In this document: one piece after another, positions 5,551 through 29,365 of the stretch
Position numbering within the stretch: the stretch's first letter is position 1
Layout: every line of letters starts with the position of its first letter
IMG/VR virus record: IMGVR_UViG_3300048597_000646
Coordinates: 1-31,700 of that record
Source: a virus
Length of the DNA: 31,700 nucleotides
Strand: one strand, 5' to 3'
Made by a program: the position numbers and the translations under genes
Notes under the pieces: model-generated
What the model was told of the DNA's origin: nothing
The model's database searches: none
What the model saw: only the letters and a program-made list of their open reading frames with translations

Positions 5551-5828
5551 CAGATAGACAAGTACAAGCAGTAGCGGATGCTATACATGAAGAGTGCCGC
5601 AAGCCTTACACAATATATGGTATTGGGTTTATGGAGCGAAAACGCCTCGCAAAAGCAGCCATAGAAGCATCAGACGCTAAGTATGTGCCTATGCTGGTGG
5701 AGGCTTTGCGAAAAATTGCAGAAGCTAGGCATCCGACAGGCAATGGTGATTTATTCGCCAGCTATAGCTGGTTACGCCAATACGCATGTGAAGCACTCAA
5801 CAGCTTACCAGAGGAAGTTAGTACATGA
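5547..5828 (+). CDS. Hypothetical early protein (93 aa)
   Basis: It has a GAGGGGAC ribosome-binding site, and its ATG and stop both overlap neighbours as ATGA. The sequence is largely helical: 'RQVQAVADAIHEEC' opens, 'ERKRLAKAAIEASD' follows, and the C-terminus 'PMLVEALRKIAEAR...WLRQYACEALNSL' resembles the ends of many small phage early proteins. No catalytic motif is present. It is coupled to the replication initiator gene, which may point to a replication role, but nothing in the sequence proves it. Confidence 0.65.
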   Translation: MTDRQVQAVADAIHEECRKPYTIYGIGFMERKRLAKAAIEASDAKYVPMLVEALRKIAEARHPTGNGDLFASYSWLRQYACEALNSLPEEVST

Positions 5829-6880
5829 GCAACGCCCGTTTTTGCATCATTCCTGCGCGCGCTTTGGGTGACACACGCATCAGCCGTAATGATGTGATGG
5901 TGCTGCTTGCCCTGGGGAAGTTTGGTGATAAGGACGGGTGGAGCTGGCCTAGCATGAAAACCATTGCGGAAATGATTCAGGCACATCATGTTTCAGTGAG
6001 TAAATCCATTAAAACACTTATTGATTGCGGCTATGTACAATCACGTCCACGCTACCGCGATGATGGCAGCCAAACATCAAATGAATACCGTATTTTATTT
6101 GATCAACCCGCCGAGCAATCCGAGCTTGATTTTGCTAAATCGGAAAACACCCCACCTGAACACACCACCCCCCCAGCCGATTCGCTACCCCCCCATAGCG
6201 TGGCGGCTATGCCCCCCATAGCCTCTGAGACTATGCCCCCCATAGCGCATACGCTATGCCTAATGAAGGATCCCACTTTAACGCCCCAGATGAACGAAAA
6301 GAATATTTCCCCGAACGTGCCGTTCGAGGGCGATAAAACCAAACATGATGGTTTTGAAGAATTCTGGAATTTGTGGCCGAAAGCACGTAGGTGTGAAAAG
6401 CCACATGCCAAGCGGGAATTTCAGGCGGCCATTCGTAAAACATCACCAGAAACCTTGCTGGCGGCGGTTAAAGTTTACATTCAAAGCGCCGAGGCGCTGG
6501 AAGGCTTTGCCCCCTACCCAGCAAAATGGCTCAAGCGGGAACGATGGCTGGAATGCGAAGTTCAGGCCGAAGGGCAGAAAACCGATATTGACCTTGCCAC
6601 GCTTGGTGGTGATGCACCTGGCAATCAATTCCTGTTACAGTTGCTCAAATATTTGCGCGCGCAGTTTGGGGATGCGATGTTTAGAAGCTGGTTTGCTGGG
6701 TTGCGATATTTTTCAACACATCAGGGAGTGCTCACACTGGTGGCACCAAGTGCCTTCATTGCGGAATGGATTAAAGCTCACCACGGAGTAGAGCTTAAAA
6801 AAGCCGCCTGCATGTTTTTTCCCGAAATACGCGAAATAGAGATTTCAGCCAATTTTACTACTCCCAAACGTGCCGCCTAA
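5825..6880 (+). CDS. Lambda-O-like replication initiator with a C-terminal DnaA-N-like domain (351 aa)
   Basis: Residues about 8-90 form a winged helix-turn-helix ('ISRNDVMVLLALGKFGDKDGWSWPSMKTIAEMI'), the type used by phage initiators to bind the origin. A proline-rich linker (about 95-150) is encoded by palindromic repeats that are probably the origin. Residues about 178-240 ('FEEFWNLWPKARR...PAKWLKRERWLE') match a domain frequent in phage replication proteins. The last 80 residues resemble the DnaA N-terminal domain ('FGDAMFRSWFAGLRYF...LTLVAPSAFIAEWI'), which in DnaA recruits DnaB helicase. It closes the early operon. Helicase loading is inferred, since no separate P-like loader is seen nearby. 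Confidence 0.85.
   Translation: MSNARFCIIPARALGDTRISRNDVMVLLALGKFGDKDGWSWPSMKTIAEMIQAHHVSVSKSIKTLIDCGYVQSRPRYRDDGSQTSNEYRILFDQPAEQSELDFAKSENTPPEHTTPPADSLPPHSVAAMPPIASETMPPIAHTLCLMKDPTLTPQMNEKNISPNVPFEGDKTKHDGFEEFWNLWPKARRCEKPHAKREFQAAIRKTSPETLLAAVKVYIQSAEALEGFAPYPAKWLKRERWLECEVQAEGQKTDIDLATLGGDAPGNQFLLQLLKYLRAQFGDAMFRSWFAGLRYFSTHQGVLTLVAPSAFIAEWIKAHHGVELKKAACMFFPEIREIEISANFTTPKRAA
6184..6260. repeat. Palindromic iterons inside the initiator gene, candidate origin
   Basis: Two full units, GCTATG-CCCCC-CATAGC at 6206-6222 and a near copy at 6230-6246, are each an inverted repeat spaced 24 bases apart. A degenerate unit precedes them (6184-6199) and a half unit follows (6253-6260). The spacing keeps the reading frame and yields a repeated 'MPPIA' peptide. 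In lambda the origin iterons lie within the O gene in the same place, between the DNA-binding and C-terminal domains. Origin function here is inferred. Confidence 0.65.
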
Positions 6881-6920: not shown

Positions 6921-7772
6921 ATGTTACTTGTACCAAAATCCCCAGAATTTACATGGCGCTTGCAAACCTCAGCAGGGCAACCATTAGATACGTTTGGGGT
7001 AAGTGTCACACCAGGTAATAATGCCATGGGAAGCTGGACGCAGTTAATTGCAGGTGCGAGCGTAACTGAGGACGTGTACGCTTTAGCAATAATGGTAGGC
7101 AATAACTTCATTGCGTCAACTTTACGAGATGGATTGCTTGATGTGGGTATTGATGAGGCAGGGGGCAGCAGTTACACCGTAAAAATACCATTCCTGACCA
7201 TCTGTGGTGCAGCAAATCCGCAAGTGGCTGCACCGATTACATTTTATTTTCCGCTATTTATCAAGGCAGGTAGTTCGATTGCCGTGCGCGCATCGGTGAA
7301 TAACGCTACCGTTGGCACGGTACGTTGTTATGCAAAACTTTACGGCAAACCAGTGCACCAAGAAGCTACCCGTGTTGGTAGTTTTGTGCGTAGTTTTGGT
7401 GATACACTTGCGTCATCACGTGGAACGATAATAACCGCAGGAACCACCAGTGAAGGATCATGGACGCAGCTAGGCTCTGCGACAGCCGAGCCACTTTGGT
7501 ATTGGAAGCTTGGTATGGGGATAGGTGATGCGACATTTACCGCGAATTATTACTTTGCTGACTTGGCATTTGGTGATGCGAGTAACAAAATAATCATCGC
7601 AGAAGATGTGCCAATCAGCGTGAATTCAGGAGAATATAAAACCGATCACTATTTTGAAGGTGACTGTTATCGCACCGTACCAACAGGCGCATTGATATAT
7701 GGCAGGCTGCAACGTAGTAACGCAACTGCCGACACGAATACATCGTTAATTGCTTACGGTATGGGGGGATAA
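6921..7772 (+). CDS. Virion/receptor-binding-type protein with internal duplication (283 aa)
   Basis: The protein is rich in Gly, Ala, Ser and Thr, with alternating hydrophobic strands and no cysteine-based motif, like phage surface proteins. It contains two related halves of about 140 residues. Each has a 'GSWTQL' motif (near residues 37 and 176) followed by an aromatic/glycine strand region, and each ends in a strand-rich segment ('CYAKLYG', 'LIAYGMG'). A two-domain beta sandwich is likely. It follows the replication gene by 40 bases, and the next gene starts directly at its stop. A tail-fibre or decoration role is inferred. Confidence 0.65.
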   Translation: MLLVPKSPEFTWRLQTSAGQPLDTFGVSVTPGNNAMGSWTQLIAGASVTEDVYALAIMVGNNFIASTLRDGLLDVGIDEAGGSSYTVKIPFLTICGAANPQVAAPITFYFPLFIKAGSSIAVRASVNNATVGTVRCYAKLYGKPVHQEATRVGSFVRSFGDTLASSRGTIITAGTTSEGSWTQLGSATAEPLWYWKLGMGIGDATFTANYYFADLAFGDASNKIIIAEDVPISVNSGEYKTDHYFEGDCYRTVPTGALIYGRLQRSNATADTNTSLIAYGMGG

Positions 7773-8111
7773 ATGGGCATTTCCATAACATCTGATTCAG
7801 CAACAATTGGAACGACTGAATATAGCTTGCCAAATGACAGTACATCGCTCACCGCGCAAACGGATGACTGCATTTTACAGGTATGGATAGACTTTGCAAA
7901 CATGACGGCGGCAGAAGAATATGAAGTGAAGGTGTATGAGAAAATCAATGCCGGCACTGCGCGTATTGTCTATAAAACCAACGTGATTGGCGCACAATCT
8001 CACCCGCTTGTCACCCCTTCGCTAATTGTGGGTGAGGGCTGGGATGTGACCGTGGATAAAATTGCGGGCACCGACAGAAGCATTGCATGGTCGATTCGTA
8101 AGATAACCTAG
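7773..8111 (+). CDS. Virion accessory protein (112 aa)
   Basis: It starts immediately after the previous stop, with GGGGGGA upstream. The sequence ('YSLPNDSTSLTAQTDDCILQVWIDFANM', then 'EEYEVKVYEKI') is of a type that recurs beside fibre genes in proteobacterial prophages. It looks like one beta-sandwich domain. Its role in the particle is unknown. The neighbouring repeat protein and fibre-adaptor gene suggest it belongs to the receptor-binding apparatus. Confidence 0.6.
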   Translation: MGISITSDSATIGTTEYSLPNDSTSLTAQTDDCILQVWIDFANMTAAEEYEVKVYEKINAGTARIVYKTNVIGAQSHPLVTPSLIVGEGWDVTVDKIAGTDRSIAWSIRKIT

Positions 8112-8121
8112 GGGGTAGCTG

Positions 8122-9591
8122 ATGACTTGGCTATTTCAGCCGATACCCGATGGCGCACAGCTGCTGGCGGTGACGACTACCCCAGTAGAAAATTCGCTGG
8201 ATGTGCGTTGGAATACCACTGGGAATGTCGGAAATAATCTGGATTTGAGGTATAATACCGTTGCTACGGTAATGAACGGCAGTGATTTGCGCTGGCATAT
8301 TAACAGCGCGGTGGATTCAAGCATTGATATACGCTGGAATCTTCTTAGCGCAATCACACAAGATGTGGATTTGCGTTACAATATTGTTGCCAATGTCAAT
8401 AGCAGCATTGATGTACGCTGGAATACCATAAGCACGGTAATGCAGGCAGTGGACGTGCGCTGGAATCTGCTAAATTCGGCCATGCAAACGCTCGATGCAA
8501 GATGGAACATCATCAGCCAGATTGCCCAGGATAGCGATTTGCGATGGAACCTCGCAAGCGTGGTGGCTCAAGATACCGATATACGCTGGAATCTGACAAA
8601 TGAAATCAACCAGCAGCTGGATGTGCGTTGGAACCTTACCAGCCAGATCGCACAAAATAGCGACTTACGGTGGAATTTACTTAACACTGCAATGCAAGTG
8701 CTGGATGTGCGCTGGAACCTTATCAACCAGATATCGCAAAATATTGATATCAGATGGAATCTAAGCAACCAAATTGCCCAGGATAGCGATTTGCGATGGA
8801 ACCTAGCAAGTGTGGTGGCGCAGAATAGTGACTTGCGTTGGAATATGGTATCATCCACGCAGGCTGACTCCACGCTTTCGTGGGATATGGCGGGAGTGGT
8901 GAGTGCTGATTATGAATTCAGGTGGAATGTACTGAATGGAGTAACGCAGGATGTTGATATTCGTTTTAATATTTTCAGTCTTATTCAGCAGAATGTGGAT
9001 GCACGGTGGGATATTGACGCGCTTGTAACTCAGCAAACCGATCTGCGTTATAATGTGCTAAGTAGCACGATGCAAACGCTCGATGCCATATGGAACATCA
9101 GCAGCCTGATTGCCCAGAATAGCGACTTGCGTTGGAATATAGCTACGTTGGTGGGGCGAAATAGTGACACCAGGTGGAATCTAATTGAAAGCATGCAGGC
9201 TGATTCCACACTTTCGTGGAATATGGCTGCGATGGTGAAGCAATCGGCAGATTTACGCTGGGATGCACTGAATGATGTGCATCAATCCATGCAGATCATA
9301 TGGCATCTGCTAGATGAGATTTTAACGGTAAATACAAGCGTATTACTACAATGGCAGATATTAAACGCTGTGAATGCGCGTATAGCTTTGCGCTACGCTA
9401 TTGAGGGCGAGGAAACCTTTGTGGATGGTGAGCGGCGGATTGATGCCGATGAGGAAAACCGCACGCTATTTTTGCCTGTAGAGAATCGTAAAATAAGACT
9501 CTCCCGAACGGGGGAGAGCCGCAGCATAATCATTCCAAGCGTGAGCCGAGCCATGCACATAAGCGATGACCGGCATCTGGATATTAACTGA
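8122..9591 (+). CDS. 14-residue tandem repeat virion protein (489 aa)
   Basis: After a 26-residue head, residues 27-390 are 26 back-to-back 14-residue units with the core D-(L/I/V)-R-W-N-(L/I) and a second half such as SQIAQNS. Two or three decayed units follow. The C-terminal 80 residues are different: charged, with 'ESRSIIIPSVSRAMHISDD'. A strand per repeat around the Arg-Trp-Asn core would suit a beta-solenoid or an elongated trimeric fibre; this is inference. Near-identical units 252 and 336 bases apart show recent internal duplication. I cannot name a family. Its neighbours, including a fibre-adaptor-like gene, point to a tail fibre or whisker. Confidence 0.7.
   Translation: MTWLFQPIPDGAQLLAVTTTPVENSLDVRWNTTGNVGNNLDLRYNTVATVMNGSDLRWHINSAVDSSIDIRWNLLSAITQDVDLRYNIVANVNSSIDVRWNTISTVMQAVDVRWNLLNSAMQTLDARWNIISQIAQDSDLRWNLASVVAQDTDIRWNLTNEINQQLDVRWNLTSQIAQNSDLRWNLLNTAMQVLDVRWNLINQISQNIDIRWNLSNQIAQDSDLRWNLASVVAQNSDLRWNMVSSTQADSTLSWDMAGVVSADYEFRWNVLNGVTQDVDIRFNIFSLIQQNVDARWDIDALVTQQTDLRYNVLSSTMQTLDAIWNISSLIAQNSDLRWNIATLVGRNSDTRWNLIESMQADSTLSWNMAAMVKQSADLRWDALNDVHQSMQIIWHLLDEILTVNTSVLLQWQILNAVNARIALRYAIEGEETFVDGERRIDADEENRTLFLPVENRKIRLSRTGESRSIIIPSVSRAMHISDDRHLDIN
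8200..9291 (+). repeat. Tandem 42-bp coding repeats (26 units)
   Basis: Each unit encodes 14 residues with no insertions or deletions over 26 units. Sequence identity between units varies: the unit at 8521 is nearly repeated at 8773 (six units later), and the one at 8860 at 9196 (eight units later). This pattern fits duplication of multi-unit blocks by unequal recombination or slippage. Confidence 0.9.
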
Positions 9592-9607: not shown

Positions 9608-10120
9608 ATGCCCATAGTAGCTGGTGATATTGATTTTTTTCTATCTGGTGGAGGATCTAACACGGATCCAAATGCGGCGCTTGGTGGCGCGATTTCCACT
9701 ACTACACAGATAACCGATGCCACGGTGGCTAATTTGTTTGATAATGTATCATCCGCTGAATCATCCGCTGGTGATACCGAATATCGCTGCTTTTATGTCA
9801 AAAATAGTCACGGCTCACTGTCACTGCAAAATGCGGTGGTTTATATTAATAGCAATACACCAAGTAGTGATACATCGGTGGAAATCGCGCTTGGCACATC
9901 CGCAGTGAATGGAACAGAACAAACTATTGCTAATGAAAGTACAGCACCCACTGGCACTTCATTTTCTACTGCTGCTGGTAGTGGCAATGCACTTTCCATA
10001 GGTAATATTCCTGCGGGACAACACAAAGCCATTTGGGTGAAGCGTATTGTGGGATCAAGTGCAGCAGCTTACAACGCTGATAATGTGGTGATTCGCGTAG
10101 CTGGTGATACCGCCGCTTAA
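9608..10120 (+). CDS. Virion structural protein, common prophage family (170 aa)
   Basis: The sequence has a widely seen prophage pattern: 'DIDFFLSGGGSNTDPNAALGGAIS' at the start, 'SAGDTEYRCFYVKN' in the middle, and 'IGNIPAGQHKAIWVKRIV' and a final 'VIRVAGDTAA'. Strands dominate, so a beta-sandwich virion protein is likely. Members of this type sit beside fibre or decoration genes; the exact role is not known to me. The start is preceded by AAAGGATG. It follows the repeat protein gene by 16 bases and is followed by the fibre-adaptor-like gene. Confidence 0.7.
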   Translation: MPIVAGDIDFFLSGGGSNTDPNAALGGAISTTTQITDATVANLFDNVSSAESSAGDTEYRCFYVKNSHGSLSLQNAVVYINSNTPSSDTSVEIALGTSAVNGTEQTIANESTAPTGTSFSTAAGSGNALSIGNIPAGQHKAIWVKRIVGSSAAAYNADNVVIRVAGDTAA

Positions 10121-10135
10121 TGTAAGGGGGGATGT

Positions 10136-10519
10136 GTGAGCAGAGTTAAAACCATTGCGAAAGATGACTTTGAGCAGCTTGATTATTTTGCGGATTACAC
10201 CGACGAATTAACTGAGCACTCAGATGATATTGCTACATCCACCTGGTTAGTGCCAAGTGACTCTGCCGAAAATCTGGGAACAGAGGCGCTTAATTTGGTG
10301 GATGATGTGACGGTGGATTATGATATTGATGCGCCATCCCCCAAATATAGAAATGGCGTTTCAGGCGCGGTGGCGATTAATTCCAAAATTACCAGCGTGT
10401 TTGTAGTGGGCGGTACTTTGGGTAACACCTACCGCCTGATGAATCGCATTACCACGGTGGAAGGCAGACGCTATTCACGGGTGATGGATCTGGTGATACA
10501 GCGCAAAAGCGAATGTTAG
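10136..10519 (+). CDS. Fibre-tail-adaptor-like protein (127 aa), GTG start
   Basis: The GTG at 10136 follows AAGGGGGGAT and gives the right N-terminus. The middle of the protein fits the pattern of phage fibre-tail adaptor proteins: an aromatic/acidic 'DYFADYTDEL', then 'IATSTWLVP', and a final 'GTLGNTYRLMNRITTVEGRRYSR' resembling an immunoglobulin-like strand pair. Such proteins link a fibre or base-plate part to the tail. It lies between two virion genes. No ATG start exists in frame nearby. Confidence 0.65.
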   Translation: MSRVKTIAKDDFEQLDYFADYTDELTEHSDDIATSTWLVPSDSAENLGTEALNLVDDVTVDYDIDAPSPKYRNGVSGAVAINSKITSVFVVGGTLGNTYRLMNRITTVEGRRYSRVMDLVIQRKSEC

Positions 10520-10529
10520 ATTATGCCAT

Positions 10530-11117
10530 ATGGTAGAGATTACTGTACAAAGTAACATTAAAGAATTTATCAGTGAGCTGAATGCGGTGCAACGCAATCA
10601 GTTGCCATTCGCCACATCCCGCGCACTGAATGATGTGGCGGTAGATGCCCAGGATGCGGTGATTAACGCAATTCCACATATATTCCAGAATCGGAAAAAA
10701 TGGTGGCTAAAAAGGCAGCCACTTGGCATTAAGGTGAAGTTTTCTAAAAAGCATGATTTGAAATCCAGCATATATACTAAAGCCTATTTTGCTGAAATTC
10801 AGGAAAAAGGCGGGCTTAAAACCCCAAAATCATCTAAACAGCTTGCCGTGCCAACAGATCGTGTGTCGCGCAAATATCGCACTTCGCATGGCGCACGTGA
10901 AATGCTGGCTGAGAGACAAAATGTTTTTAAAACCAATAAGGGTATATTTCAGCGCACAGGTAAGAAAGGTGCGGTACTGCTATGGTCGTATGCGCGCAGT
11001 GCCAAAATTAAACCGCGCTTTGGATTTTATGATATCTGCCACAAAGTTATAATGCGCCGCTTTGAGCAGCATTTTAAAAAGCGGCTTGAACAGGCATTAA
11101 GCACCGCAAGAAAATAA
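10530..11117 (+). CDS. Minor tail protein Z-like (195 aa)
   Basis: The N-terminus ('NIKEFISELNAVQRNQLPFATSRALNDVAVDAQDAV') matches the pattern of lambda-type minor tail protein Z and related neck proteins, where a long helix is followed by an 'ipfA-AlN' segment. The rest is strongly basic, with 'NRKKWWLKRQ' and 'RRFEQHFKKRLEQAL'. In lambda, Z helps connect tail to head. It is unusual here because the gene lies outside the main tail operon at 21848-30125. Function by resemblance only. Confidence 0.65.
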   Translation: MVEITVQSNIKEFISELNAVQRNQLPFATSRALNDVAVDAQDAVINAIPHIFQNRKKWWLKRQPLGIKVKFSKKHDLKSSIYTKAYFAEIQEKGGLKTPKSSKQLAVPTDRVSRKYRTSHGAREMLAERQNVFKTNKGIFQRTGKKGAVLLWSYARSAKIKPRFGFYDICHKVIMRRFEQHFKKRLEQALSTARK

Positions 11118-15362: not shown

Positions 15363-17166
15363 ACTTTCCGAGTGGGCGGATGCGTTTTTATTTCTATCCA
15401 GCGAAAATAGTGCGGAGCCAGGTAAATATTCCACGGCGCGCACACCTTACGTGCGTGAGCCAATGGACTGCATTACCTCATCAGAGGTAGAGGAAATTAT
15501 ATTGCTCTGGGCGAGCCAGACAGGAAAAACGACAATCTTTAACGCGGCCACGGGTTACTATATCCATCAAGATCCATCACCTGTGATGATGGTGCAGCCC
15601 ACCAAAGAAATGGGGGAAGCGTGGAGTAAAGATAGGTTTGTGCCAATGGTACGTGACACGCCTGTGTTAAATCAGCTGGTGAATATCAATGTTTCACGCG
15701 ATGGCGAAAATACCATTATGCATAAGCGCTTTCCAGGTGGCAACCTTACTATTGCTGGTGCAAATTCCCCTGCCTCGCTTGCTTCGCGCCCTAAGAGGGT
15801 GATGATGCTTGATGAAGTTGACCGTTTCCCCAGATCAGCCAAAAAAGAGGGAAGGCCATCAGGTTTGGCTATTGCCAGAACTTCCACCTTTTGGAACCGA
15901 AAAATATTAAAATCATCCAGCCCCACTATTAAAGGTGAGAGTGAAATAGAAGAAGATTACGACAGCAGTGACAAGCGCAAATACTGGGTTAAATGCCCAC
16001 ACTGCGGCGAAATGCAGAAAATGGTATTTGAAAAATTACAATGGCCTGATGGCGAACCTGAAAAAGCCGTGTATGTGTGCGCACATCATGGCTGCATTAT
16101 GCAGGATGGTGATAAATATTACATGCTTGCGCATGGTGAATGGCGCGCAGAGATGCCATTCAAAGGGCGCGCAGGATTCCAGCTATCAGCACTTTATTCA
16201 CCATGGGTGCCGTTTGGTACATTTGCCCGCCAGTTTGTGGAGTCAAAAGCGGATCCTGAAAAACTAAAGGTGTTTATCAACACCAAATTAGCTGAGACAT
16301 ATGAAGAAAATATTGATGGCGAAGGCGTTGAAGAAGATAGCCTGATTGCCCGTGTAGAAGATTATAGCGGCGCACCAGAAGGAGTGCTGATAATTACCAT
16401 GGCTGTAGATACGCAGGATGACCGGTTAGAATATGAACTACGTGGCTGGGGTGTTGATGAAGAAAGCTGGCTGATTGATTATAGGGTTATTCATGGTGAT
16501 CCGGGGCTGCCAGATGTTTGGCGTGATTTAAATGATATTTTGGAAAGTAAGGTGCGCCACGCCAGAGGCATAAACATGACTATCAGCACTGCCTGCATTG
16601 ATGCAGGCGGCCACCATGCCGAATCAGTTTATAAATTCTGCAAAACAATGCAGCGTCAAGGCAGGCGGGTGTATGCCATACGCGGCGCCAGCCAAAGCTG
16701 GCGGCCTGTGATTAGTAAAATGAGTAACAATAATTCACACAAAGTGAAAATGTTTATTGTGGGCACTGATACGGCTAAAGATACTATTTTTTCACGCTTG
16801 AAATCGGCAGAACCAGGTGCAGGCTATTGCCATTTCCCAGCACACATACCAGATCATTATTTTACTGGGCTTACCTCGGAAAAGCTGGTGAAGCGCTACC
16901 ACAAAGGGCGCACGACTAAGCAATATATTAAGAAAACGCAAAGCGCGCGCAACGAGCCGCTTGATTTATTTGTATACAGTCTGGCTGCGCTCAAAACGCT
17001 TACTATCAACTGGAATGCCTTAAAATTACGCCTTGATAAACAAACTCCAAAAAACACCCCTCCCACCTCCACGCCTTCCCCGCATACTGATGACCATGAA
17101 CCTACGCAAAGCAGCATTTGGCGCACGCGGCGTGGGCGGGGAAACGTTAGCAGGTGGCGTAGTTAA
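15283..17166 (+). CDS. terL: Terminase large subunit, gpA-like (627 aa)
   Basis: The protein is of the lambda gpA type. The ATPase domain has a Walker A variant 'ASQTGKTT' (residues 77-84) and a Walker B 'RVMMLDEVDRF' (172-182, Asp177-Glu178). A cysteine cluster (Cys238, Cys241, Cys266, Cys271) looks like a zinc ribbon. The nuclease part starts at 'TMAVDTQDDRLE' (Asp376), with 'ACIDAGGHH' further on giving another acidic residue. It powers DNA packaging and cuts cos ends. The start at 15283 gives the conserved N-terminal 'PLRLSEWADAF' region. Confidence 0.95.
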   Translation: MTLKLTTNERAAAKQALHVVAAPPPLRLSEWADAFLFLSSENSAEPGKYSTARTPYVREPMDCITSSEVEEIILLWASQTGKTTIFNAATGYYIHQDPSPVMMVQPTKEMGEAWSKDRFVPMVRDTPVLNQLVNINVSRDGENTIMHKRFPGGNLTIAGANSPASLASRPKRVMMLDEVDRFPRSAKKEGRPSGLAIARTSTFWNRKILKSSSPTIKGESEIEEDYDSSDKRKYWVKCPHCGEMQKMVFEKLQWPDGEPEKAVYVCAHHGCIMQDGDKYYMLAHGEWRAEMPFKGRAGFQLSALYSPWVPFGTFARQFVESKADPEKLKVFINTKLAETYEENIDGEGVEEDSLIARVEDYSGAPEGVLIITMAVDTQDDRLEYELRGWGVDEESWLIDYRVIHGDPGLPDVWRDLNDILESKVRHARGINMTISTACIDAGGHHAESVYKFCKTMQRQGRRVYAIRGASQSWRPVISKMSNNNSHKVKMFIVGTDTAKDTIFSRLKSAEPGAGYCHFPAHIPDHYFTGLTSEKLVKRYHKGRTTKQYIKKTQSARNEPLDLFVYSLAALKTLTINWNALKLRLDKQTPKNTPPTSTPSPHTDDHEPTQSSIWRTRRGRGNVSRWRS

Positions 17167-26455: not shown

Positions 26456-29365
26456 ATGCCACCAGTCGCCGCTGCTGTAGCTGGAAGTTTAAGCAGTTAT
26501 TTTGCAGGTATTACACTTAGTGGATTGATCGCCAATGCCATTTTGAGCTTTGCGGGCAACTTTGTGCTTGGCGCACTTTCTAAAGCTATTGCAGGGAAAC
26601 CAAAACAATCAGGTAATGCCGCATTTAATCAAGAGCGCACACAGCTTATTAGGCAGGCAATTACTGCGCGCCGCATTGTATATGGCACCACTAAACTTTC
26701 TGGTGCGCTGGTTTTTGCTGAATCTACCAGTAACGGCGCAAATGCAGCCAAGCCAGCAAAAGCTAATAAAATGATGCATTTCGTTATTGCTATTACTGGG
26801 CATGAATCTGAATCCATTGAAAAGATTTATTTGAACGAAATACAGCTCACCCTTGATGTCAACGGGTTTGCCACGAATGCGCCTTATGGAAAAACAGTTA
26901 CCAATGATGTAAACTTAACGGCTAACATTGCAAATATAGTGGTTTTAAGCGGAGTTGCCACTTGCACAACTCATACTAACCATGGATTTCAGGTTGGCGA
27001 TATAGCGCGTATTACAGGTATGGATTCAAGAGTTACAGGAAGCTTTACAATCACAGGTGTTACTGCAAATACATTTACTTTCAACAGTGTTTCGCGCAAT
27101 GCAACGTATAGCGGTACAACATCCCCAAGATCCATTACATCCGTCAATCGTATTACATCATCAATACAAAGTTATGTGCGGGTAGAAAAATTTCTAGGTG
27201 GTAGTAATCAGGCAGCAAGCAGCCAGTTGATCAATGATGTGGGAAGTTTGTGGACAAATAATCACAGGCTGCGCGGCGTTACGTATATTTACATCAGGTT
27301 TGAGCACGATAATGATGTTTTCCCTACGGGTGTGCCGAATCCATCTGTATTGTTAAAGGGGAAGAGGGTGTATGATCCGCGTGATGGTTTGACAAAATGG
27401 AGCGATAACTGGGCGCTGTGTGTACGCGATTATTTACTTACTGCAAAAATAGCGACTGCCAGTGAGATTGATGAAGATAGCGTTATCACAGCTGCTAATA
27501 TTTCAGATGAGCTGGTAGTGCTTGCTGGAGGTGGGACTGAAAAACGTTACACCTGTAATGGAATGATAGAAACGGATCGCAAAAAGAAAGATATATTGCA
27601 GGAAATGCTTACGGCTGGTGCAGGTAAAATTGTATATACGGGTGGAAAGTGGAGTATTATTGCAGGGGCATGGCAAACACCTGCGGCAGATGCACTTACA
27701 GAAGATGATTTGGATGGTGGAATCTCTACTACTACACGCATTTCTAAACGCGAATTATTTAATGCCGTGAAAGGTGTACATGTTTCTGCGGCAACCGCTT
27801 ATCAATCCACCGATTTTCCAGTGGTAACAAATAGCACTTACCTTGCAGAAGATAATAACGAGAGAAACTGGAAAGATATTGAGCTGCCATTTACCACATC
27901 CGCATCCATGGCGCAGAGAATTGCTAAAATTGAACTTGAAAAAGCGCGCCAGCAAATAACTACCCATTGGCCATGTAAATTAACCGCAATGCGATATAAA
28001 GCGGGTGACGTTATCCCAGTAACTTATGATCGCTATGGGTGGAACAACAAGCCTTTTGAAATTGTTGATTGGCAATTTGCAATAAGAAATGAAGGCGAAT
28101 CCAGTCGTCTAGGTGTAAATTTATCATTGAGAGAAACTGCATCAGGTGTTTATGACTGGAATAATGGTGAGGAAACCACTTTTGACCTATCACCAAATAC
28201 CAATCTGCCAAGTGCATTTAACGTGTTGCCCCCTGGAATGCCAAGTATTACGGAATCATTATATTCAACCCGTGATGGATCTGGTGCAAAAGCAAAAGCC
28301 ATAGTTTCATGGAGTGCAAATAATATCAGTACCACAACAGATACATATCAACTTGAATATCGCAATATATTTGATGCCGAGTGGTCAATAGTGCCAACAA
28401 CCAGCGGCACCACTTATGAAATATTTGATATAACGCCAGGGCGCTATGATTTTCGCGTGAAGGCAATTAACCGCCTTGGCGTTTCTTCTGAATATACACC
28501 GCGCGTGACGCAGGAAATCTATGGATTGTTAGCGCTGCCTGCGGATATAACAGGCTTATCATTGCAGGCTATATCAAGCATTGCTCTATTCCGCTGGGAT
28601 GTACACCCAGATTTGGATGTGCGTGAAGGCGGCAAAATACTGATTCGCCATAATGAAGCAATGAGTGGAGTAAACTGGGCAAACTCTTACACAATCAGCG
28701 AGGCCATCCCAGGCAATGGCAATATGGCAACCACTGAGTTAAAAGCAGGCACTTATTTATTCCGCGCGATGGATTCATCCGGTCAGCTTTCTGTAAATGC
28801 CACAACAATTACCTCAAAAGATGCGACATTGACAGAATTCACTACACTTACTACGTTGCAGGAAGATCCGCTGTTTACAGGCACTCATACCAATACCCTA
28901 GCAGATGAAAGTGTTTTAAAACTTACTGGTGCTGGCCTGATTGATGATGTTTCTGATTTTGATAGCTTAGAAAGTATTGATGATTTAGGTGGCGTAATTG
29001 ACACCGGCACTTATTATTTTGATGCAGGTATTGACCTTGGAACAGTAAAGCGCGTACGAATTGAAACCAGTATTGAAATGCTGGCAGTAAATGTAAATGA
29101 TTTAATTGATAGCCGCACTAACAATATAGATGACTGGCTTGATTTTGATGGCACCGTGGACGGTGCATCAGTGGATGTATATGTCGAAGTACGCGAAACT
29201 GACGATAATCCCAGCAGCTCCCCTACATGGAGCGATTGGAAACGTGTAAGTGTGGCAGATTATTTTACACGTGGGCTAGAGTTTCGCGCCATCCTTACTT
29301 CAAATGACCCTGCTTATAATGTGAATGTATCACGGTTGCGTGTAGCTATTAAAGAAGTGGTATAA
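26456..29365 (+). CDS. Central tail fibre/tip protein, gpJ-like (969 aa)
   Basis: The N-terminus has a glycine-rich hydrophobic stretch ('LSGLIANAILSFAGNFVLGALSKAI') and the sequence 'ARRIVYGTTKLSGALVFAEST' found in J-type tip proteins. Residues about 156-215 ('VVLSGVATCTTHTNHGFQVGDIARITGM') look like an inserted small beta domain, similar to FCCH-type domains. Residues about 592-690 form a fibronectin type III domain ('TYQLEYRNIFDAEWSIV...YDFRVKAINRLGVSSEY'). The C-terminal 250 residues vary and probably carry receptor contacts. It is shorter than lambda J (1132 aa). The protein forms the tip that contacts the host. Confidence 0.88.
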   Translation: MPPVAAAVAGSLSSYFAGITLSGLIANAILSFAGNFVLGALSKAIAGKPKQSGNAAFNQERTQLIRQAITARRIVYGTTKLSGALVFAESTSNGANAAKPAKANKMMHFVIAITGHESESIEKIYLNEIQLTLDVNGFATNAPYGKTVTNDVNLTANIANIVVLSGVATCTTHTNHGFQVGDIARITGMDSRVTGSFTITGVTANTFTFNSVSRNATYSGTTSPRSITSVNRITSSIQSYVRVEKFLGGSNQAASSQLINDVGSLWTNNHRLRGVTYIYIRFEHDNDVFPTGVPNPSVLLKGKRVYDPRDGLTKWSDNWALCVRDYLLTAKIATASEIDEDSVITAANISDELVVLAGGGTEKRYTCNGMIETDRKKKDILQEMLTAGAGKIVYTGGKWSIIAGAWQTPAADALTEDDLDGGISTTTRISKRELFNAVKGVHVSAATAYQSTDFPVVTNSTYLAEDNNERNWKDIELPFTTSASMAQRIAKIELEKARQQITTHWPCKLTAMRYKAGDVIPVTYDRYGWNNKPFEIVDWQFAIRNEGESSRLGVNLSLRETASGVYDWNNGEETTFDLSPNTNLPSAFNVLPPGMPSITESLYSTRDGSGAKAKAIVSWSANNISTTTDTYQLEYRNIFDAEWSIVPTTSGTTYEIFDITPGRYDFRVKAINRLGVSSEYTPRVTQEIYGLLALPADITGLSLQAISSIALFRWDVHPDLDVREGGKILIRHNEAMSGVNWANSYTISEAIPGNGNMATTELKAGTYLFRAMDSSGQLSVNATTITSKDATLTEFTTLTTLQEDPLFTGTHTNTLADESVLKLTGAGLIDDVSDFDSLESIDDLGGVIDTGTYYFDAGIDLGTVKRVRIETSIEMLAVNVNDLIDSRTNNIDDWLDFDGTVDGASVDVYVEVRETDDNPSSSPTWSDWKRVSVADYFTRGLEFRAILTSNDPAYNVNVSRLRVAIKEVV

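Follow-up and report, generated by a model that had tools for sequence, protein, structure and literature searches.

Alishewanella phage LSH1 (2026) carries a three-gene module, gp34-gp35-gp36, that is included in a virion mass-spectrometry survey, and the available portions of that report describe gp34 as a long protein whose N-terminal domain is lyase-like and whose C-terminal region is poorly predicted, maybe repetitive, and left uninterpreted (PMC13243795). The same portions report that a protein of the module resembles the GP4 fibril (HHpred match to 8JOU_g, E 0.0075), that a further module protein has an Ig-fold, and that the three genes always co-occur among LSH1-related IMG/VR genomes (PMC13243795). 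The long protein of Slicko01 is described there as sharing only the N-terminal domain of gp34 (PMC13243795). A search of the whole of Slicko01 gave no match to the repeat or partner models used in this work, and by eye its long protein looks to be built of a different, longer repeat. Repeat-built phage appendages are already known, as is the PHROG family phrog_6079, 'tail protein', whose profile matches the protein studied here but whose name is silent on a 14-residue unit, an Ig-like partner, and a gp15 fusion. The new elements are a recurring module of a repeat protein and its partner, and the link of this module to gp15. Repeats of similar length are found in triple beta-spiral shafts (adenovirus, reovirus, PRD1), which feature a repeat of ~15 residues whose turn has a conserved Gly or Pro, and in YadA-type head repeats, which feature a 14-residue unit with small residues of the SxAxG type.

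The window, which is the whole stretch of DNA that was analysed, comprises the 31,700 bases of the IMG/VR virus record IMGVR_UViG_3300048597_000646. It encodes a 489-aa repeat protein, REP, at 8122..9591 on the plus strand, an Ig-like partner protein, PART, and a Gp77-like protein. These three have the same composition as LSH1 gp34-36, a likeness that is drawn by description only from the available portions of the LSH1 report. The lyase-like beta-helix at the N-terminus of gp34 is not present in REP, which has only 26 residues before its array, and the virion survey covers the LSH1 module whereas the window module is known from its genes alone. The window gene at 10136-10519 is, by Pfam score, a member of the family of the podophage GP4 adaptor Gp77 (PF23148). 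GP4 is a podophage whereas the window is siphophage-like, and the likeness is one of adaptor family. KVP40-like Vibrio phages share with the window the 14-residue repeats and an adjoining PART gene. Their array, however, extends a T4 gp15 domain, and KVP40 has no Gp77 match, whereas REP has no gp15 match in Pfam or PHROG. The likeness to YadA-type and triple beta-spiral proteins lies in 14- and ~15-residue repeats that form surface fibres. REP differs from the triple beta-spiral in its unit of 14 residues, which has no Gly- or Pro-dominated position, and from the YadA type in the absence of SxAxG; its unit is [LIF]xW[DN][ILV] with polar flanks and has no Pfam match.

By gene content, the window is a temperate siphophage-like genome. 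It encodes a lambda-type portal, a gpA-type terminase, head, connector, tail tape measure, and distal tail proteins, and a J-type central fibre (26456-29365), as well as an endolysin, an integrase, and a repressor. A single 643-aa gene at 19210-21141 matches major head protein families, one of which is named head and protease, and this suggests a fused protease and capsid protein. The gene run with REP comes after a replication gene (5825-6880), within which a 24-bp tandem repeat of ~2.5 copies is located at 6189-6260. Upstream of REP and also on the plus strand, a 283-aa gene (6921..7772) and a small 112-aa gene (7773..8111) have no Pfam or PHROG match and no relatives in the loci that were compared. 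Judged by placement alone, the 283-aa product is possibly a payload of the appendage arm proposed below, and both genes could encode the exposed end of the appendage. Downstream on the plus strand, PART (170 aa, 9608..10120) matches phrog_13135 (function unannotated) with E 3.2e-31, and the Gp77-type fibre-tail adaptor (10136..10519) matches PF23148 with E 3.1e-11 and a score of 44.1 bits, where the cut-off is 27. The next gene on this strand (10530..11117) encodes a gpZ-like minor tail or neck (tail completion) protein that matches phrog_1924 (E 7.8e-29) and phrog_27 'tail completion or Neck1' (E 4.6e-4); its Pfam Minor_tail_Z match is below the family cut-off. This gene likely shares an operon with the REP, PART, and Gp77 genes. 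The gene at 11206-11628 matches phrog_5707.

REP consists of a 26-aa N-terminus, 27 in-register 14-aa units, a 17-aa step, two further units, and a C-terminal tail. The strict units span aa 27 to 404 without gaps (8200..9333, plus strand), the step is a register jump of 17 residues from W394 to W411, and the step and the last two units (W411 and Y425) occupy 9334..9417 on the plus strand. The tail (9418..9588, plus strand) features R-x-hydrophobic-x-hydrophobic motifs of the ENRTLFLPVENRKIRL type. The unit consensus is D-[LIV]-R-W-N-[LI]-x-x-x-[IV]-x-Q-x-x. The Trp position is occupied by W in 23 of the 27 units and by Y or F in the remaining four, and D1 is found in 23, R3 in 23, and N5 in 22 units. 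Autocorrelation gives a lag-14 identity of 0.369, where 1000 shuffles average 0.079 and do not exceed 0.128, and a 3-unit DNA pattern that was derived from REP itself has 8 matches in the window and 0 in 100 shuffles. A first-pass annotation of this DNA had described at least 26 uninterrupted 14-residue units with Trp in almost every one, and the present count of 27 strict units, or 29 with those past the step, agrees with that description. The same annotation had proposed block duplications at 252 and 336 bases. A 167-nt block is present in three copies: relative to the reference, those at spacings of 252 and 336 are 60% and 72% identical, where in-register lags of the gene generally give ~0.40-0.51 identity. 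Block duplication is supported, clearly for 336 and more weakly for 252. A Pfam search of REP matched no family and an NCBIfam search gave weak, uninformative matches only, so the earlier statement that no named family with this repeat was known holds for Pfam, but it overlooked phrog_6079, which matches REP with E 4.3e-19 in four stretches, the best of them at aa 274-423.

Degenerate peptide scans with the whole of REP found no relative in viral_contigs or genome_contigs, and a spaced 3-unit Trp pattern retrieved 45 stretches from IMG/VR viral_contigs, of which 41 pass a repeat model. Four loci that failed the model (L008, L009, L039, and L042) were removed before counting, and L040 was kept in the counts with a weak pass (E 2.9e-8). 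The repeat model was trained on the pattern loci, so that its scores for those loci are not independent, and the partner counts are. Additionally, relatedness among many of the loci (L014/L025 and L012/L016/L018/L024/L030/L038 are examples) means that the counts do not represent independent events. In genome_contigs, 8 of the 115 matches listed pass the repeat model and 3 of those have PART; these are the only PART loci among the matches listed. L117, which is repeat-positive and without PART in a locus that is cut, looks like a true relative. The repeat-positive loci L056, L080, L139, and L156, which also are without PART, look like chance matches by eye. Matches in Verrucomicrobia phage P8625 and in Klebsiella PeteCarol (the one inspected among 21 Klebsiella records), which run antisense to annotated tail fibre genes, were excluded, and six-frame searches of the P8625, PeteCarol, and Enterobacter phage BHUENT1 loci gave no match to the repeat model. 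Antisense tail fibre frames in L196 (3318-5222) and L199 (2334-5255), of which the P8625 one belongs to a SHAEG-type 14-residue repeat, mimic the Trp repeat and give spurious tblastn matches.

The family consensus is D-[LIF]-x-W-[DN]-[ILV]-x-x-x-[VAI]-x-x-x-L, in which the search pattern partly determines positions 2, 4, 5, and 6. Position 10 is free of it; in 69% of 686 units it holds an aromatic residue or L, I, V, or M. Position 3 is R in 43% and Q in 13% of units, with other residues in the rest, and the Arg is not general to the family. The stacked Arg-Trp ladder that the first-pass annotation had called conceivable finds no support in this composition, and its broader idea of a fibre survives as that of a tail or appendage repeat protein, in keeping with phrog_6079 and with the Gp77 gene two genes downstream. 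The family arrays keep the 14-residue register and are interrupted by irregular steps, of which 26 of 40 are 17 residues long; segments of 5-6 units between irregular steps are found in L004, L005, L033, L041, and L173. The relatives are 15-42% identical with a near-invariant Trp, an observation that is partly circular because the rows were picked by the Trp pattern. In L194 (5550-5993) and L175 (6510-8198), the genes beside PART show by eye 14-residue patterns of this type in which Trp is scarce or absent, and these suggest that the repeat family may exceed the reach of the Trp pattern. ENRTLVVEPENRTL is one example of the R-x-hydrophobic-x-hydrophobic motifs that lie in the tails of many relatives. 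There are 49 such motifs in 35 family tails, compared with a shuffle mean of 22.4 and a maximum of 36 (1000 shuffles), and at least one motif is found in 23 of the 35 tails, a number that the best shuffle equals. In the ten relatives that were scanned, phrog_6079 matches six, and Pfam domains precede the array in two, a SASA esterase in L172 and a weak ConA-like match, below the cut-off, in L122. A minor tail protein match lies ahead of the array in L013. By these profile matches, what precedes the array varies between relatives. The number of units varies as well: counting in one and the same way gives 27 for the window and 34 for L036, whose PART is 81% identical.

The repeat pattern alone had been used to retrieve the 41 repeat-positive loci, and phmmer with the PART of the window as query detected a homologue in 28 of them. 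PART is on the same strand as the repeat in all 28 and within 500 nt of the repeat frame in 21. As a control, which is only rough because the genes concerned may lie outside the flanks, identical settings recovered TerL from 3 of the 41 loci and nothing for the major head protein, tape measure, or J. A whole-record search of 14 records adds one PART (L003), giving 29 of 38 distinct records when loci of one contig are merged. PART was not found in the other 9 records, among which L012, L023, and L045 have arrays that are cut by the contig end. In the reverse search, which started from PART and gave 27 loci, a repeat protein scored above threshold in 10 and in none of the other 17; among these 17, only the Trp-poor patterns of L175 and L194 were seen by eye. 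By these gene searches PART is usual beside REP, yet the latter 17 loci indicate that it also exists independently. A PART homologue of 38% identity is present at 16136-16719 of NZ_CP053546, a Paenarthrobacter sp. YJN-5 plasmid that is typed as conjugative, perhaps in a phage-derived region. AlphaFold2 predicts PART with high confidence (pLDDT 94.4, pTM 0.90) as an Ig-like beta sandwich. A Foldseek search of this model against the PDB gave no match at E 0.001 or better, and a structural second look returned generic sandwiches, including pilins, with Z up to 8.0. The predicted fold was matched to the N-terminal domain of a glycoside hydrolase, 8k2h (Z 8.0, rmsd 3.2 over 132 residues), to PorA (Z 7.8, rmsd 3.5 over 113 residues), and to the pilin FimG (Z 7.0, rmsd 3.6 over 116 residues).

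Gp77 (PF23148) was searched in 38 REP-bearing records, which comprise 30 of the 38 pattern-set records, 7 PART-found records, and KVP40. It is present in 14 of them, with 13 scores exceeding the family cut-off, and none of 14 control genomes has it; many of the 24 records without a match are fragments. The direct order REP-PART-Gp77 is found in nine records (L004, L005, L010, L033, L036, L041, L043, L173, and L180), L027 has the order REP-Gp77-PART, and L044 has REP-Gp77 with PART absent. Among 116 neighbouring proteins from part of the loci, Gp77 is the commonest Pfam family (8), followed by SU10_adaptor (4).

The repeat is also found in KVP40-like Vibrio phages, where it is fused to the C-terminal side of gp15, a tail sheath stabiliser. 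In T4, gp15 is the tail terminator and forms a ring at the head-proximal (neck) end of the tail. KVP40 gp15 matches the solved T4 gp15 (4huh) at residues 3-221 with E 9.2e-53, and beyond residue 221 it consists of a 14-residue array that matches phrog_6079 with E 4.7e-8. The gene that follows is PART. The arrangement of a gp15-array fusion and PART is also found in ten further annotated Vibrio phages and in one unannotated record. Behind cores that are 85-100% identical to that of KVP40, the extension varies from 144 to 310 residues: it is 144 in ValKK3 and VH7D, 227 in QD01 and VS2, 241 in KVP40, phi-pp2, and V07, and 310 in F86. For these eight phages the boundary between core and array was set by motif; for nt-1, K567, D480, and 1.081.O it was set at a fixed position, and their lengths are approximate. 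The differences from the KVP40 extension are 14 residues, which is one unit, and 97 and 69 residues, which are both one short of a multiple of 14, so that array length changes mainly, not solely, by whole units. A variable unit number, suggested as a possible means of adjusting host range or reach, had been anticipated in the first-pass annotation, and variation in number is found both here and between L036 and the window. The search found no Gp77 match in KVP40, whose array also has no R-rich tail, and both absences fit a gp15 fusion that substitutes for the adaptor. In Vibrio phage 1.081.O (MG592456, L211 1877-2070), a part of the coding 14-residue repeats in the gp15 gene is annotated as CRISPR spacers. 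A LamB-specific receptor-binding 'collar fiber', VPK567_0422, has been inferred in KVP40-like phages, according to the available part of that report (PMC12028318). In Vibrio phage K567, the gp15 array and PART (L208 917-2749) come after VPK567_0422, which by locus tag lies five genes before gp15 (VPK567_0427). The two Vibrio phage papers that were searched for gp15 do not mention it, and limited literature searches found neither the 14-residue repeat nor the gp15 extension described.

The structure of REP was predicted as a single chain by AlphaFold2 with the full protein and 33 relatives. The model has a mean pLDDT of 68.8 and a pTM of 0.63 and features about one 12-residue strand per unit; the pLDDT of blocks is 73-81 to about residue 310 and 62-68 past that. 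This monomer prediction, which had been proposed as a check in the first-pass annotation, thus gives a regular strand pattern at only moderate confidence. With Foldseek, neither the PDB nor a set of viral models yielded a match to the REP model at E 0.001 or better. When 14 chains were compared by VIA-align, the model was matched to CsgA (Z 17.7, rmsd 9.5, 259 residues) and to the Phi92 tailspike (Z 16.6, rmsd 4.6, 343 residues), with autotransporter beta helices also near the top; the matches are mostly beta-solenoids. The model suggests that REP is an elongated beta-rich rod, and the likeness to solenoids supports such a rod but is no proof of a solenoid fold. A unit-lag test found excess similarity at lags 1, 3, and 4 and no clean 2- or 3-unit period, and a fixed unit count per coil is not favoured. 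PART, the Gp77 gene, the KVP40 gp15 link, the 17-residue steps, and the C-terminal tail all lie beyond what the first-pass annotation had noted.

We consider it probable that REP is the beta-rich, length-variable arm, or shaft, of a virion appendage that is mounted through Gp77 or gp15 and carries the Ig-like partner. Each 14-residue unit would form roughly one amphipathic beta strand and a short turn, with L2, W4, L6, and V10 on one side and D1, R3, and N5 on the other, and the units would stack into an elongated beta-rich rod that is most likely solenoid-like. The number of units would set the length of the rod, and this length would change mainly through gain or loss of units. In the window phage, the R-hydrophobic C-terminal tail and the Gp77-type adaptor would anchor the arm to the tail or neck, whereas in KVP40-like phages the arm would be anchored by its fusion to the tail terminator. 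PART may dock on the repeats in both mounting types, and the appendage may function in host adsorption. A bolder version, which we put forward only speculatively, is that tailed phages share a swappable 'arm kit' in which PART clips onto successive units, perhaps through pilin-type strand complementation, so that the number of units would set both the length of the arm and the number of PART copies, with mounting by Gp77 or by gp15 fusion.

The main structural rival to the solenoid is a trimeric sheet fibre, in which REP would form a beta-prism or triple-beta-spiral-like shaft instead of a single-chain solenoid; REP would then still serve as an arm, with a different fold. Phage fibre shafts are mostly trimeric, and the segments of 5-6 units that recur between irregular steps in several relatives would suit such a shaft. 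The single-chain model resembles solenoids, however, and the unit lacks the Gly or Pro turn position of the triple beta-spiral, which makes the trimeric shaft a possible but clearly less favoured fold. A different role is assigned to the array if REP is a receptor-binding tail fibre at the distal tip, where the array itself would bind the host, Trp and Arg would form a carbohydrate surface, and unit number would alter avidity. The PHROG 'tail protein' match is consistent with such a fibre, as are the enzyme or lectin-like domains before the array in 2 of 10 relatives (L172, and L122 below the cut-off), but these variable domains sit outside the array, the array of KVP40-like phages is fused to the terminator at the neck end of the tail, and the window already has a J-type central fibre. 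We consider a tip fibre unlikely.

The array could also be a flexible linker, that is, a little-folded spacer conserved for composition only. The moderate AlphaFold2 confidence and the free variation of array length point in this direction, and the authors of the LSH1 report consider a linker role for the C-terminal region of gp34, as described in its available portions (PMC13243795). Such a spacer is difficult to reconcile with strict 14-residue spacing across 27 units, with alternating hydrophobic positions, with the Trp that persists among divergent relatives (partly by choice of the rows), and with the recurrence of the 17-residue step, and we regard it as improbable. Finally, the 42-bp periodicity and the CRISPR spacer annotation of part of such an array in 1.081.O raise the question of a DNA-level feature, a CRISPR-like or minisatellite array without protein function. 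Between-unit agreement at codon positions 1, 2, and 3 of REP is 0.47, 0.58, and 0.35, and all six codons are in use for the conserved Arg, so that with the third position least conserved, conservation acts on the protein. Additionally, Tandem Repeats Finder at its default score reported no array at REP, and the relatives share a protein pattern; a DNA-level explanation has next to no credibility.

If REP is the length-variable arm of a virion appendage, phage genes that are now called 'hypothetical', including the extended gp15 of KVP40 and its neighbour, would become one recognisable virion module. This module would have a testable assembly rule, and arm length could be compared between near-identical phages. 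If the LSH1 module is homologous, the arm would also explain the C-terminal region of gp34 and the Ig-fold protein of that phage.
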